From a virus: a stretch of 29,673 nucleotides of DNA. This document shows positions 10,612-29,673 of this stretch, piece after piece. The notes under the pieces were generated by a model, which did not search any database, was not told where the DNA came from, and was given only the letters and a program-made list of their open reading frames with translations. The stretch spans positions 1 through 29,673 of the IMG/VR virus record IMGVR_UViG_3300046736_000115; one strand, written 5' to 3'. Position 1 is the stretch's first letter. Each line of letters opens with the position of its first letter. A program made the translations under genes and the position numbers.

Positions 10612-10635
10612 GGATGGAAGTCTTGGATGGAAGTA
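10612..10635 (+). repeat. Direct repeat pair, left of attP core (candidate integrase arm sites)
   Basis: GGATGGAAGT occurs at 10612-10621 and again at 10625-10634, 13 bases apart. The same motif with one change (GGTTGGAAGT) occurs twice, also 13 bases apart, on the other side of the attP core. A short inverted repeat (AGTAG at 10632-10636, CTACT at 10644-10648) follows. The arrangement resembles P-arm sites bound by the N-terminal domain of tyrosine integrases. Confidence 0.65.
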
Positions 10636-10676
10636 GCCGCAAACTACTGACAGAAGCCGTGTTACAGAACGGGAAA

Positions 10677-10726
10677 CCCGCCTCCTAAGCGGGGGGCCGG
10701 CAGTTCAAATCTGCCCGGGCGCACCA
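10677..10726 (+). other. attP: attP core: 3' half of tRNA-Arg(CCT)
   Basis: The stretch reads exactly as tRNA positions 27 to the CCA end. The anticodon stem CCCGC/GCGGG encloses the 7-base loop CTCCTAA (anticodon CCT at 10684-10686). Then come a 5-base variable loop, the T arm GGCAG-TTCAAAT-CTGCC, the acceptor strand CGGGCGC, discriminator A and CCA. No matching 5' acceptor strand (GCGCCCG) or D arm is present upstream, so this is not a whole tRNA gene. It is the usual form of a phage attachment site that restores the host tRNA on integration. The 7-base anticodon loop flanked by inverted repeats is the likely crossover region. Confidence 0.9.
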
Positions 10727-10752
10727 CCAAAACATTGAGTAATTCGTTTGAT

Positions 10753-11112
10753 TCAGGGCTTTTTGGGCCGTCGTTTGCCCTGTTTTCCCGCTGATCGCTG
10801 TTTTGAAAACTCCGCCTTTTTCCTGCCATTTCCACTCCTTGCCACGGGAGTGGTTGGAAGTCGTGGTTGGAAGTCGCCCGGCCATGGGCTGGCGCTGTAA
10901 TCGGCACAGACGCGGTCGGCGAGGTCCAGCCAGTACGTGTTCGCGGGCGTCTGGCCGTACCGTTTCAGCGCCGTCTGAAAGCGAACGTCCATGAGATAGG
11001 AAACAAAGGCGGTCGCGAACAATTGCGCAAGCTCTGGGTAGCGGTGCACCTGCGGCCCGGCTGGCGCGTTCGTGTCCTTGCTCCGCTTGACGAACGTGAT
11101 CGGTTTAGCCAT
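10753..11112 (-). CDS. Small basic protein overlapping the integrase gene end
   Basis: This 119-residue protein starts at the ATG complementary to 11110-11112, 8 bases before the integrase stop codon, so it is probably coupled to integrase translation. The middle (VHRYPELAQLFATAFVSYLM; TYWLDLADRVCADY) looks like a folded helical domain. The last 35 residues are very basic (GNGRKKAEFSKQRSAGKQGK). It ends 26 bases from the attP core and its 3' part contains the right-hand repeats. A DNA-binding accessory role in recombination is possible but unproven. Longer starts in this frame run inside the integrase gene and are shadows. Confidence 0.55.
   Translation of the reverse strand: MAKPITFVKRSKDTNAPAGPQVHRYPELAQLFATAFVSYLMDVRFQTALKRYGQTPANTYWLDLADRVCADYSASPWPGDFQPRLPTTPVARSGNGRKKAEFSKQRSAGKQGKRRPKKP
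10852..10875 (+). repeat. Direct repeat pair, right of attP core (candidate integrase arm sites)
   Basis: A 13-base unit, TGGTTGGAAGTCG, is repeated perfectly in tandem at 10851-10863 and 10864-10876. Within it GGTTGGAAGTC (10852-10862 and 10865-10875) matches the left pair at 10 of 11 and 9 of 11 positions. Same orientation and same 13-base spacing on both sides of the core support a P'-arm role. The repeats lie inside the 3' part of the small minus-strand gene. Confidence 0.65.
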
Positions 11113-12331
11113 TGGACCCATCCCCGCTTCTCTTCCGCAACCTAGGCGCGGCCGACTTCGGCAGCTCGGCCGGCTTGGGATGGGGCGCCGCGAAGGCGGC
11201 CTCCAGCGCATCGCCGGCAACTCGCAGGTGGTGCGGGATGGAGCCTCGCGTATACCGCTTCGTGGTGCGTTGGTCTCCATGATCGAGGTACACGGCGATG
11301 ATCGCCTCGTCGCCGATCGCGCGTGACGCCACCGTCGCGAAACTGTGTCGCAGGTCATAGGGGCGCATCGTCTCGGCGCGCTCGAGATCGAGATCGGGCC
11401 GCTCCTGGCGGAGGGCCGCCACGGCGCGATCGCGGGCGGCCGTGAAGGTGCGGTGCAACGACGATCGCGCAAACGGTTTCTCCCAGCCGTCGGCGGCGTC
11501 GAAGGCCAGGAAGGCCGCCAGACCGAGCGTCGTGAGCCGCTTCTGTTGGGGCTTGGTGCCGCGGCCCTTCTTGCGCCCGGGTGTGATCATGGTCGGGGGC
11601 GTCCCGTGCCAGTCAACATCGGATCGCTTCATCAGGCGCAACTGCGCCGGCGTCACCGGCGCGTAGGCAAAGACGCGAATCCGCGCCTTCGTGAGCGATA
11701 CCGACTCGAGGGTCGCGCCGCGGTCGCGGACCTCGTCGATGATCCGCTCGATGATCTCGTACGAGACGTCACGGGCCTCGGGATCGGGCTCGGTGTACTT
11801 CGGCACGTCGTACAGTGGATTCGCCGCATGTTTCCCGTCGAGGACGGTATAGACGTGCGACAGCGCAAAGCGGTACTTGTTCACCGTCGACGCCGCCATC
11901 GGCGTCTTCCCATCGCGGCCGCGATGGCTTAACCCGTTCAAGGCACGCCGTATGTCCGGCGCCTGGAGTTCGGCTCGCCGCCTCATCCCGAAGGATTCAC
12001 ACCACCACTTCAACTGATCAGCGCGTTCGGTCTTGCGCTGCCGCGTCAGCGTCGCCGTCTCGAGATAGGTGCGGACGTCCGCGGCGAGCGTGCCGCGTGA
12101 CACCGGGCCGTCGCCTGCTTTGGTGATCTCGTCCGTGAGGCGCATCTTCTCGCGGTGCCACCGCGCCACCATCGTCGGCAACGGCGTCTCCGGCGGAAAG
12201 CGGATCTCCGGGCTGCTGATGCGCCTGGTGCCGCTCCCGACGGAGGCCATCACGCTGAAGCCGTGCGCGTCTTGATAAATACCGGGGGCGACTCGCTGAC
12301 GTTTAGCGCGCGCCGTGTTCGTCTTCTTCAT
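11105..12331 (-). CDS. int: Tyrosine-type site-specific integrase
   Basis: This 408-residue recombinase integrates and excises the phage at the tRNA-derived att site nearby. Residues about 80-165 form the SAM-like core-binding domain. The catalytic domain contains RPYDLRHSFAT (Arg II at 328), DH at 350-351 and Tyr 360 in TTKRYTRG. At the Arg I position (usually TGxR) the sequence reads APVTPAQL, so the usual Arg appears to be Thr 227, a change I recall from a subfamily of environmental integrases. An acidic/basic C-terminal tail follows. A GGAGGT ribosome-binding site (complement of 12340-12345) precedes the ATG. The gene lies downstream of the repressor on the same strand and points toward attP. 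Confidence 0.93.
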   Translation of the reverse strand: MKKTNTARAKRQRVAPGIYQDAHGFSVMASVGSGTRRISSPEIRFPPETPLPTMVARWHREKMRLTDEITKAGDGPVSRGTLAADVRTYLETATLTRQRKTERADQLKWWCESFGMRRRAELQAPDIRRALNGLSHRGRDGKTPMAASTVNKYRFALSHVYTVLDGKHAANPLYDVPKYTEPDPEARDVSYEIIERIIDEVRDRGATLESVSLTKARIRVFAYAPVTPAQLRLMKRSDVDWHGTPPTMITPGRKKGRGTKPQQKRLTTLGLAAFLAFDAADGWEKPFARSSLHRTFTAARDRAVAALRQERPDLDLERAETMRPYDLRHSFATVASRAIGDEAIIAVYLDHGDQRTTKRYTRGSIPHHLRVAGDALEAAFAAPHPKPAELPKSAAPRLRKRSGDGSNG

Positions 12332-12466
12332 ATTGGCTTACCTCCAGGTTGCACAGAGAAACGGAGCTGCACATAATTTCCAATTGAATGGTTTACCGCG
12401 TAGGCACAATAGCTACTTCCGTCACGCGCCACTCAGGAGGCTGCATGCCGACCGTGCCTAGTCGTT

Positions 12467-12850
12467 CTACCGTGTGCCGGGCAATTTGCCGGCTGTCCCG
12501 TGATTTTTATGTTCGGGCCGCGCGGATGATTTTGAGCGCGGCTCGTGACGACGCTCGACCCAAAACGCCAGGAAGTTCTTCACCTGTTTCCGGGCGACCG
12601 GTGGCAAAGCCTCCCAATCGCGCAGCAGCTTCCGTTGGGCCGCGTTCAAGGCGGGCGGTTCGATATTCAGCAGTACGGCCGAGGCGATCCGAATAAGGTC
12701 GTCGATCGTCGCCTTCCCTGTCCCATTCACGTACTTGTTCAACCAGCCGGTACTGCGGCCGATCCGTTCGGCGAGTTCGGTCTGATTCAGGTCGAGGGTG
12801 CGGAGGTAGTTGCGGATGGCCGTGTCGAGGGGGTGCTTCGCAGCTGGCAT
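12467..12850 (-). CDS. XRE-family phage repressor (CI-like)
   Basis: This is a 127-residue protein from ATG 12848-12850. The N-terminal 65 residues form a Cro/CI helix-turn-helix (LNQTELAERIGRSTGWLNKY), followed by a short helical region (LNAAQRKLLRDWEALPPVAR) and a charged tail rich in Arg, Ser and His. It lacks a LexA-like peptidase domain, so RecA-stimulated self-cleavage is not expected. An ATG at 12901 would add 17 basic residues but has no ribosome-binding site. Divergent placement opposite the Cro-like gene across an AT-rich spacer fits the lysogeny repressor. Confidence 0.82.
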   Translation of the reverse strand: MPAAKHPLDTAIRNYLRTLDLNQTELAERIGRSTGWLNKYVNGTGKATIDDLIRIASAVLLNIEPPALNAAQRKLLRDWEALPPVARKQVKNFLAFWVERRHEPRSKSSARPEHKNHGTAGKLPGTR

Positions 12851-12918
12851 CTGCCTGCGATCGTAACGGCTGTTCTGGCGCTTTGTTCTCAGTCTTTCCA
12901 TTTGGATTTTTTATTATA

Positions 12919-12947
12919 TTGTCAAAACACTAGGTTTAGACTAACAA
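12919..12947 (+). promoter_or_regulatory. Early rightward promoter candidate in the repressor/Cro switch region
   Basis: TTGTCA (12919-12924), a 17-base spacer and TAACAA (12942-12947) form a sigma70-like promoter ending 10 bases before the ATG at 12958. The region is strikingly AT-rich in a GC-rich genome. AAAC-N5-GTTT (12925-12937) lies between the two boxes and could be an operator half-site pair; that part is weak. A minus-strand TATAAT (complement of 12913-12918) may serve the repressor gene. Confidence 0.5.
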
Positions 12948-12957
12948 TCGCCGCGTT

Positions 12958-13281
12958 ATGGCGAAGCTCATCCAGCAAGCTCGACCGTCCAGCCGACCCC
13001 GCCCCCGAACGTTGCGCGTCCTGCGCGCGGAACGTGAAATCACCCAGACCGTCATCGCGGCCCGGGCGAACACGACCCAGACCCGGTATTGGCAAATCGA
13101 ACATGGGGAAGGAGCCCCGCTTCGCAAAGAGGAGCGGATGGCCATCGCGCGCGTCCTCGAGGTCGCCCCCCACGAGATTGCCTGGCCGGAGATGAAGCCC
13201 ACGCAGCTCCAGGTGACGCGGGCGGCGGCGCGCGAGGAACGGCGCCGGATGGCCGAGTCGATGAACGCGGGGCGGGCGTGA
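12958..13281 (+). CDS. Cro-like XRE helix-turn-helix protein
   Basis: This 107-residue protein is the first gene of the rightward early operon. It contains an XRE helix-turn-helix (REITQTVIAARANTTQTRYW; IEHGEGAPLRKEERMAIARV) at residues about 25-75, then a basic helical tail. There is no ribosome-binding site before ATG 12958 and the predicted promoter -10 box lies only 10 bases upstream, so the transcript may be nearly leaderless. Its divergent position relative to the repressor suggests a Cro-type role in blocking repressor transcription. Confidence 0.78.
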   Translation: MAKLIQQARPSSRPRPRTLRVLRAEREITQTVIAARANTTQTRYWQIEHGEGAPLRKEERMAIARVLEVAPHEIAWPEMKPTQLQVTRAAAREERRRMAESMNAGRA

Positions 13282-13553
13282 GTCCGGCAACCGCTCCCCG
13301 GTTTCGGGCGGGGGACGCTCTGCCGGCCGTGCTCGTGCTGCGCGACCTGGCCGAACTCTTGGCCCTTGGCTCGTCGCGCACCTGGGAGCTGTACCAGCGC
13401 GGCGAGTTCGCGCGCTTCGAGCTGCTGCCGCGGCTCGGGAACCGACCGCGCTTCAGCGGCAAGAAGCTGCAAGCGTGGCTCGAACTCGAAGACGAGGCCG
13501 TCGAGTCGCGCTACTTCAAAGCCGGCCGCAAAGCGTTGCGGGGTGTGAAGTGA
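13278..13553 (+). CDS. Small DNA-binding protein, excisionase/HTH_17-like
   Basis: This 91-residue protein starts at GTG 13278, overlapping the previous stop (GTGA). The segment LVLRDLAELLALGSSRTWEL followed by YQRGEFARFELLPRLGNRPR and FSGKKLQAWLE is the winged-helix pattern of MerR/excisionase-like helix-turn-helix proteins, with the basic wing and a final helix. Members act as excisionases or regulators. Its place just after the Cro-like gene fits either role. Confidence 0.7.
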   Translation: MSPATAPRFRAGDALPAVLVLRDLAELLALGSSRTWELYQRGEFARFELLPRLGNRPRFSGKKLQAWLELEDEAVESRYFKAGRKALRGVK

Positions 13554-13852
13554 CGCACACGCCCGGCCCGTGGGTTCTTCGACGACGTGCGAATCGACGT
13601 CAGTACCTGGTGCCACTTAGTGGAGATACCGGGCCCCTGATCGCGCGCGTCTACATGCCGACCGACGGTTCACACGACGCCGACGCCAACTTGGTGGCCG
13701 CGGCGCCGGAACTTCTCGAAGCGCTTGAGGCTGTCTGGCGGCTGGTCGAGACCCTCGACATCGGCAGCTTCGAGAAAGCCCAGATCCGCGATCTCGTCTG
13801 GCCCGCGATCGACGCGTCCCGTGGCCCGTATCCGCGGGTAGGGACGCCATGA
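13550..13852 (+). CDS. Conserved small phage protein (HTPGPW type)
   Basis: This 100-residue protein starts at GTG 13550, overlapping the previous stop. It shows the hallmark of a widespread phage family of unknown function: N-terminal THTPGPW, a central strand region (PLIARVYMP), then DADANLVAAAPELLEALEAV, a helix starting with the N-x-x-L-x-A-A-A-P-E-L-L-E-A-L pattern. The function of this family is unknown. It is embedded in a run of overlapping early genes. Confidence 0.75.
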   Translation: MTHTPGPWVLRRRANRRQYLVPLSGDTGPLIARVYMPTDGSHDADANLVAAAPELLEALEAVWRLVETLDIGSFEKAQIRDLVWPAIDASRGPYPRVGTP

Positions 13853-27447: not shown

Positions 27448-29349
27448 ATGGATCGCGCGTTCGGGCTCCTCCACGTCAAAGCCTTCGACGCCGAGCGCCG
27501 GGTGTTTTCCGGCCTCGCCTCCACGCCCGACCTCGATCGCCAGGGGCAGAGCGTGGACCCGATGGGCGTGACCTACCGGAACCCGGTCCCGCTGCTGTTT
27601 CACCACGATCAAAAGCAACCCGTCGGCACGGCCATCCTGAGCACGACGGCCGACGGCATCGCCTTCGAGGCCACGCTCCCGACGGTCACCACGCCGGGCC
27701 GACTGAAAGACCGCGTCGACGAGGCCTGGCACACGATCGAGAACCGGCTGATCACGGGCGTCTCGGTGGGCCTGCTGGTGCAGGAGAAATCCGTCCAAGC
27801 GATCAAGGGCGGCGGCTATCGCCTCACGAAGACCGAAATTGTGGAACTGTCGCTCGTCACGATCCCGGCCAATACGCAGGCCACGATCCTGGCGGTGAAA
27901 TCACTGGCCGCGTCAGGCCCTGACCCGTCCCGCGCTGGGGACCTTCACCCGATTGTGCGCGTGACAAAGGGCACGCTCCCCATGACGACCACCGAACAAA
28001 TCACCGCCCTCGAGAACAAGCGCGCGGCCCATGTGGGACGCATGAACGACATCCAGACGACGTGCGCGACGGACGGCCGATCGAAGGACGACGCCGAGCG
28101 GACGGAGTTCAGCACCTTGCAGGTCGAGGTCAAGACCATCGACGCCGAGCTGGTCGACGCGCGCGAGATGGAACGCCTCAACATCGCCCAGGCCAAGCCG
28201 GTGGTGGCGCCCGCCCTGGCGATGAAGACCACGTCGGTGATCAGCGTCCAGCCCAACGTGGCGCCGGGCAGCGCGTTTGTGCGCCTGGCGTGCGCGAAAC
28301 TCGTGTGCAACGGTAATCTCTTCGAGGCCGCGGAGTACGCGAAACGCTGGAACGATTCGACCCCCGAAGTCGCGCTCGCGCTCAAGGCCGCCGTCGCCCC
28401 GGGCACGACCACGGATGCGACCTGGGCGCTGCCGCTCGTGAACCAGGGCATCGCGAACGAGTTTATCGAACTCTTGCGACCCGCGACGATCCTCGGCAAG
28501 ATCCCCGGGCTGCGGATGGTGCCTTTTAATGTCAAGGTTCCCTCTCAGACCGCCGGGGGCTCATACGGTTGGGTCGGCGAGAGCAAGCCGAAGCCGGTCA
28601 CGAAACTGGCGTTCTCGTCGGTCTCGCTCGGCGTCGCCAAGGCCGCGGGCATCATCGTCCTCACCGAGGAACTCGTCCGTTTGTCGAATCCCTCCGCGGA
28701 GGCGCTCGTGCGCGCCGATATGGTCGCGGGCATCGCCCAGTTCCTCGATGCGCAGTTCATCGACCCTGCGGTCGCCGCCGTGGCGAACGTCAACCCGGCC
28801 TCGATCACCAACGGCGCCCCGACCGCCGCGGCGACCGCGAGCCCCCTCGCCGACATCCTCGGACTGATTCAACACTTCGTGACGAACAACATCTCGCCGG
28901 CCGGGGTGACGTTCATCATGAGCGCTGCCAACGCGCTGTCGTTGTCGTTCCGCACGAACCTCGATGGGTCGCCGCAGTTTCCCGGGATCGGGATCGAGGG
29001 CGGCGCGTATCGCGGGTTGACGTTCATCACGAGCCAGGCCGCTGGCGCGAACATCGTCGCGCTGCAACCCAACCTGATTCTGTACGCCGACGATGGCGGC
29101 GTGACGATCGACGCCTCGCGCGAAGCCTCGCTGCAGATGGACAGCGCGCCCGCGTCGCCGGCCGATGCCACGACCGTCTTCGTGTCGCTCTGGCAAACCA
29201 ACACGGTGGGGTTGCGCGCCGAGCGGTACGTGAACTGGAACAAAGCGAATGCGAACGCGGTCAAGTACCTGACGGCCGCGAACTACCCGGCGCCGGCGGG
29301 CACCACGACCACGCGCGCCCTCGACGAGGCCCCACCCCGCAGCAAGTAG
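27448..29349 (+). CDS. HK97 prohead protease fused to major capsid protein
   Basis: This 633-residue single frame joins two functions. Residues 1-155 are a peptidase U35/S78-type prohead protease with SGLASTPDLDRQG, the catalytic His in FHHDQKQPVG (His 52/53) and Ser 135 in VELSLVTIPAN. Residues about 179-260 form the delta-like scaffolding domain, rich in coiled coil. The rest is an HK97-fold capsid protein (WALPLVNQGIANEFIELLRP, GWVGESKPKPVTKLAFSSVS, VLTEELVRLSNPSAEALVRA; RAERYVNWNKANANAVKYLT). A possible internal start ATG 27982 has no clear ribosome-binding site. Fused forms self-cleave during maturation in other phages; that is inference here. Confidence 0.93.
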   Translation: MDRAFGLLHVKAFDAERRVFSGLASTPDLDRQGQSVDPMGVTYRNPVPLLFHHDQKQPVGTAILSTTADGIAFEATLPTVTTPGRLKDRVDEAWHTIENRLITGVSVGLLVQEKSVQAIKGGGYRLTKTEIVELSLVTIPANTQATILAVKSLAASGPDPSRAGDLHPIVRVTKGTLPMTTTEQITALENKRAAHVGRMNDIQTTCATDGRSKDDAERTEFSTLQVEVKTIDAELVDAREMERLNIAQAKPVVAPALAMKTTSVISVQPNVAPGSAFVRLACAKLVCNGNLFEAAEYAKRWNDSTPEVALALKAAVAPGTTTDATWALPLVNQGIANEFIELLRPATILGKIPGLRMVPFNVKVPSQTAGGSYGWVGESKPKPVTKLAFSSVSLGVAKAAGIIVLTEELVRLSNPSAEALVRADMVAGIAQFLDAQFIDPAVAAVANVNPASITNGAPTAAATASPLADILGLIQHFVTNNISPAGVTFIMSAANALSLSFRTNLDGSPQFPGIGIEGGAYRGLTFITSQAAGANIVALQPNLILYADDGGVTIDASREASLQMDSAPASPADATTVFVSLWQTNTVGLRAERYVNWNKANANAVKYLTAANYPAPAGTTTTRALDEAPPRSK

Positions 29350-29354
29350 CCGAC

Positions 29355-29673
29355 ATGGGGTTCTTCTCGTCGTTCCGCTCGATCCTCGCGCGCGCAAAAA
29401 TGCCGCCCGCCGCGGCGCCGGTCTCGAGATCCGGTAGCCGCGGCTGGTGGCCGATCGTGCGCGAGCCCTATACGGGCGCCTGGCAGCGCAACGACGAGAT
29501 CACGACGGACACGGCCCTCGGCTACTGGGCCGTGTACGCCTGCGTCGCGCAGATCGCCACCGACATCTCGAAGCTGCCACTGTGCCTCGTTGAGCAGACC
29601 GACGAGCGGATCTGGACGGAGACGAGCAATCCGGCCTACTCGCCGGTGTTACGTCAGCCCAACCGTTACCAAA
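29355..29673 (+). CDS. Phage portal protein, 5' part (continues at base 1)
   Basis: The portal gene begins at ATG 29355, 5 bases after the capsid stop. The first residues are MGFFSSFRSILARAKMPPAA, followed by WWPIVREPYTGAWQ and ALGYWAVYACVAQIATDISK, a typical N-terminal clip/helix region. The frame continues past 29546 into base 1 of the window. The 3' 127 bases duplicate the left end. Confidence 0.95.
   Translation, partial: MGFFSSFRSILARAKMPPAAAPVSRSGSRGWWPIVREPYTGAWQRNDEITTDTALGYWAVYACVAQIATDISKLPLCLVEQTDERIWTETSNPAYSPVLRQPNRYQ
29547..29673. repeat. Terminal direct repeat, right copy (assembly overlap)
   Basis: This is the exact copy of 1-127; see the left copy. Removing one copy leaves a 29,546-bp circle with an intact portal frame. 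Confidence 0.95.

Follow-up and report, generated by a model that had tools for sequence, protein, structure and literature searches.

The DNA analysed here (the window) is a viral stretch of 29,673 nt that carries, at 10677-10726 on the plus strand, the 3' half of a tRNA-Arg(CCT) gene. In tRNA numbering, the letters read directly as positions 27-31 (CCCGC), an anticodon loop at 32-38 (CTCCTAA, with anticodon CCT), 39-43 (GCGGG), 44-48 (GGGCC), the T-arm (GGCAG-TTCAAAT-CTGCC), the acceptor strand (CGGGCGC), A73 and CCA. The original prediction had described this segment as an exact fit to tRNA positions 27-76, anticodon and CCA included, which the direct reading bears out. It had also described the 5' half as absent, in agreement with the outcome of two programs: ARAGORN found no whole tRNA in the 29,673-nt window, and the Rfam tRNA model gave a weak match of 27 bits, below its cut-off of 29, with unrelated sequence filling the model's 5' part. 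The half-tRNA occurs once in the window and not at all in shuffled sequence.

A gene for a tyrosine integrase of 408 aa lies on the minus strand at 11105-12331, about 380 bp from the half-tRNA. Around the half-tRNA, the sequence GGWTGGAAGT is repeated four times in two pairs with 13-bp spacing, at -67/-54 and +173/+186 (offsets of the TGGAAGT motif, counted from the first base of the anticodon loop). The pair on the P side consists of GGATGGAAGT at 10612-10621 and 10625-10634, and that on the P' side of GGTTGGAAGT at 10852-10861 and 10865-10874, all on the plus strand. The same pairs stand at equal or near-equal distances beside the integrases of six related phages (L002, L006, L007, L008, L065, and L066) and, with base changes, beside those of four more (L064, L067, L069, and L070); the P' pair is displaced by about 10 bp in some relatives. 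By analogy with the arm sites of lambda and of mycobacteriophages, we infer that these repeats are putative arm-type integrase sites. An ORF of 119 aa on the minus strand (10753-11112), its start overlapping the end of the integrase ORF, contains the P'-arm repeats; it could possibly encode an excision factor, or be no gene at all.

The interval from 10612 to 13556 is about 90% identical to phage L002, and this homology ends exactly at the first P-arm repeat, a pattern that suggests a mobile cassette made up of attP and integrase. The terminases of the two phages are 96% identical as well.

Related attachment sites and the predicted position of the crossover

Integrases related to this one, at 26-98% identity, likewise adjoin the 3' halves of tRNA genes. 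Where the half is recognisable, the target is mostly tRNA-Arg (anticodons CCT, CCG, TCG, and TCT), with a few tRNA-Val, tRNA-Lys or tRNA-Glu candidates in the minority. Four integrases (L091, L079, L099, and L010) lie by tRNA-Lys, tRNA-Val or tRNA-Glu-like halves and would mark target switches within the family. The T-stems of related attPs differ in sequence yet still pair (GGCAG/CTGCC, GCCGG/CCGGC, GCAAG/CTTGC, and GTGGG/CCCAC), and this covariation implies that the phage copies were taken from real tRNA genes. One distant phage, whose integrase is 34% identical, has exactly 47 bp in common with the present site, and its flanks are unrelated.

The 7-bp overlap CTCCTAA at 10682-10688 on the plus strand, corresponding to anticodon-loop positions 32-38, is the predicted place of strand exchange. 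An inverted repeat, formed by the 5-bp anticodon stem around the 7-base loop, had been offered as the sign of a crossover there; the repeat itself is present, but it fails as a locator, because the T-arm shares the same 5-7-5 geometry and positions 27-31 are unconserved in the relatives. Nor can the window's own left identity edge at 10676 fix the loop, since the window agrees with the host gene through 27-31. The relatives supply that edge. In their attPs, positions 32-76 remain a well-formed tRNA half while variation sets in to the left of the loop, where L067, L068, and L069 depart from the host consensus already at position 31. Two further cases come from displaced halves lying by related integrases: in genome G088 (L016/L022), the displaced half and an intact tRNA-Arg(TCG) are identical over exactly 31-76, and in genome G114 (L011/L024), the displaced half and an intact tRNA-Arg(TCG) elsewhere are identical over 29-76. 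The predicted anticodon-loop crossover thus gains support from the left edge in relatives and from both displaced/intact pairs, and exchange within 10682-10688 is, on these sequence comparisons, well supported. The comparison leaves the right-hand limit unfixed, since attP and the candidate attB show no mismatch inside the block.

The strongest competing explanation accepts the attP and places the crossover in the T-loop or at the junction of T-stem and acceptor. In Islander, this type accounts for roughly half of all islands that integrate into tRNA genes, with 1836 T-region sites beside 2083 anticodon-centred ones (PMC4383910), counts that also make anticodon-centred attPs a common kind. The fragment's T-arm, being 5-7-5 as well, does not allow the window alone to discriminate. 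A crossover in the T-loop would, however, free positions 32-48 to drift, whereas the anticodon loop and the 3' strand of its stem are tRNA-like in about 20 attPs, and the bases that vary are those directly left of this loop. We therefore regard a T-loop or T-stem/acceptor crossover as improbable.

The integrase and its probably displaced arginine

An AlphaFold2 model of the integrase (mean pLDDT 85, pTM 0.64) shows an enzyme in three parts, with an N-terminal domain of three strands, one domain for core binding and one for catalysis, and as a predicted structure it confirms the tyrosine-integrase fold; the best Foldseek matches are XerA, the Tn1549 integrase, and lambda integrase. In box I, the sequence VTPAQL stands where XerA has VRVGEL, so that the position of the first catalytic arginine (Arg I) is occupied by Thr227. 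Among the residues of the RKHRH/W-Y catalytic set, Arg I is absent, the lysine (Lys255), Arg II (Arg328), the second histidine (His351), and the tyrosine nucleophile (Tyr360) are present, and the first histidine is replaced by Tyr325. The residues invariant in 32 diverse relatives include Arg253, Lys255, Gly256, Tyr325, Arg328, His329, and Tyr360, and His351 is nearly invariant in the same 32 sequences.

An arginine at position 253, two residues before Lys255, is found in all 49 aligned rows without a box-I arginine (this integrase and 48 relatives, a few of the rows being near-duplicates), while none of the readable rows keeping the box-I arginine has Arg-x-Lys, L126 among them being ambiguous in the alignment; related rows are not independent in these counts. 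The L078 group has the same hairpin with the residues exchanged, arginine in box I and threonine at 253. Thr227/Arg253 here and Arg/Thr there are a reciprocal swap. The two arginine states do not form one clade each, and at least two changes are required on the tree. The arginine of TPAQLR, which follows Thr227 by five residues, was considered as the substitute and ruled out as unconserved. From the sequence pattern, Arg253 would take over the catalytic role of the missing box-I arginine.

A different consequence of the missing arginine has to be weighed, namely that the integrase is catalytically dead and the site hence unused by it. Thr227 does stand in the place of an arginine on which Cre and Flp crucially depend (PMC4499138). 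Against loss of function, the 49 rows without this arginine all keep Lys255, Arg328, and Tyr360 together with Arg253, and their attPs follow host tRNA variants, which argues that the integrases are still in use. A dead integrase is accordingly very unlikely.

A tblastn search with the integrase against 50,697 annotated phage records returned no match, and searches of the literature gave no earlier account of the integrase family, nor of tRNA-Arg prophages in Acidobacteria. The viral sequences were collected by scanning for a PYD-RHS motif, and the sample is thus biased towards this family. Taken together, the data probably describe a family of integrases from environmental phages, large and apparently undescribed, whose members mostly use the anticodon loop of tRNA-Arg and in which the catalytic Arg I has moved to the beta-hairpin before the lysine. 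Such a family amounts to a natural two-state experiment on where in the active site of tyrosine recombinases the phosphate-binding arginine can be placed, and it is the arginine swap, rather than the attP reading, that deserves more study.

Phage genome, host gene and proposed integration

The window begins with a direct repeat of 127 bp (1-127) that is identical to 29547-29673 and lies within the portal gene, which indicates a complete circular phage genome with a closed length of 29,546 bp. Its recognisable genes encode portal, terminase, capsid/protease, and tail proteins, RusA, a methyltransferase, a repressor, and the integrase. The probable repressor gene (12958-13281, plus strand) fits a temperate phage. 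A single ORF of 633 aa at 27448-29349 fuses a head protease with the major capsid protein.

A half-tRNA without a partner, lying beside an integrase gene in a circular phage genome, is expected of an attP and not of a prophage end. Two other origins can be set aside. The fragment might be a decayed phage-encoded tRNA gene, as the scoring of the near-identical L002 copy as tRNA-Arg by ARAGORN could suggest, but the relatives lack the 5' half at the same edge and keep their 3' halves perfectly paired, and the fragment sits amid conserved arm repeats beside an integrase, all of which makes decay highly improbable. An origin as the attL or attR of a prophage, or as an artefact of assembly, is equally remote: proviruses are the source of many viral contigs, but here the repeat within the portal gene closes the genome, and phage genes flank the site on both sides.

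The host gene was sought in 84,980 bacterial and archaeal genomes. An exact 42-base half gave one match, in the MAG Acidobacteria bacterium nzgw76, where it belongs to an intact tRNA-Arg(CCT) gene that shares 52 identical bp with the phage (10676-10727). Other genomes of the same class contain T-arm variants of this gene. Variants of this sort also appear in the attPs of related phages, and the 50 bases of the L006 attP recur in many class-level relatives of the nzgw76 MAG. The expectation that the site would give a handle on the host has therefore held, since the intact nzgw76 gene points to Acidobacteriota. The genome search suggested with it succeeded in part: a matching tRNA-Arg(CCT) gene was found in one MAG, but a prophage with this integrase was found neither there nor in 193 class-level genomes. 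No integrase was found in the nzgw76 MAG, and neither this phage nor any close relative was found integrated in the 193 genomes, whose best integrases are only about 30-40% identical and in which the major capsid protein has three distant matches (34-42% identity). The host is likely to belong to an uncultured lineage of Acidobacteriota, with the insertion gene identified and the host placed to phylum only.

The reading of the site as an attP in tRNA-Arg(CCT) is upheld by the circular genome, the adjoining tyrosine integrase, the arm-type repeats, the host gene identical over 52 bp, and the 47 bp shared with the distant phage. We conclude that 10677-10726 is very probably the core of the phage attP, where exchange with the tRNA-Arg(CCT) gene of the host would take place via an overlap in the anticodon loop. 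In the mechanism that we infer, which comprises integration of this phage, the crossover position, and binding of the arm repeats, the integrase would bind a pair of arm sites on either side (10612-10634 and 10852-10874) as well as a core with the anticodon loop at its centre. Recombination between attP and the host gene would then proceed via CTCCTAA, the phage-borne 3' half would substitute for that of the host to leave the tRNA intact at one junction, and the host's own 3' half would come to lie at the prophage's far end.

By sequence alone, a metagenomic phage has in this way been assigned both its host phylum and the exact gene for insertion. There are probably few genetic tools for Acidobacteriota, and the integrase/attP pair is a possible tool for this phylum.

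Comparison with known systems

As an attachment site, the attP in tRNA-Arg(CCT) is of an already known, ordinary kind. The same tRNA isoacceptor serves as attB in Escherichia coli, where argW (tRNA-Arg CCU) is a prophage site; the tRNA sequence, the host, and the integrase all differ here. The site shows the features of anticodon-centred tRNA attPs: a 3' tRNA fragment that runs to the end of the gene, an adjoining integrase gene, a host tRNA identical through its 3' end, and identity that starts at the anticodon stem-loop. It resembles Islander class 'A' (PMC4383910) in the 3' tRNA fragment of the attP, the core beginning at the anticodon loop, the restored tRNA, and the adjoining integrase, and differs in its uncultured Acidobacteriota host and its tRNA-Arg(CCT) target. 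The attPs of lambda-like Int-Y mycobacteriophages have a common core of 30-45 bp that includes the 3' half of a tRNA and, as here, pairs of arm-type sites on each side of it (PMC10865867); the present integrase is distantly related to theirs, and the arm sequence and host phylum are different. In tRNA-dependent lysogeny, a core of about 10 bp goes with a phage tRNA (PMC10865867); this was ruled out here because the core of 45-52 bp would restore the tRNA and the window has no phage tRNA gene.

For the probably displaced arginine, the closest parallels were described by Smyshlyaev et al. (PMC8138268), who reported that Arg I is missing from the CTnDOT integrase, in which a more downstream arginine is used instead, and that IntDes, from Desulfovibrio only, has a shifted arginine and a tyrosine in place of the first histidine. 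The present integrase resembles the Bacteroides IntDOT/CTnDOT integrase in the absence of the box-I arginine, and its Arg253 may be the counterpart of the downstream arginine. In IntDOT, the substitute arginine is R285, beside K287. A Pfam scan of 32 members of the present family found no CTnDOT arm domain (PF17293), and the family is for this reason not assignable to the IntCTnDOT subgroup, from which it also differs in being a phage family with tRNA genes as targets. The residue pattern of IntDes, likened here by description only, is similar in both its shifted first arginine and its tyrosine for the first histidine. Our findings thus suggest that the present integrase family may work like the CTnDOT integrase and IntDes.
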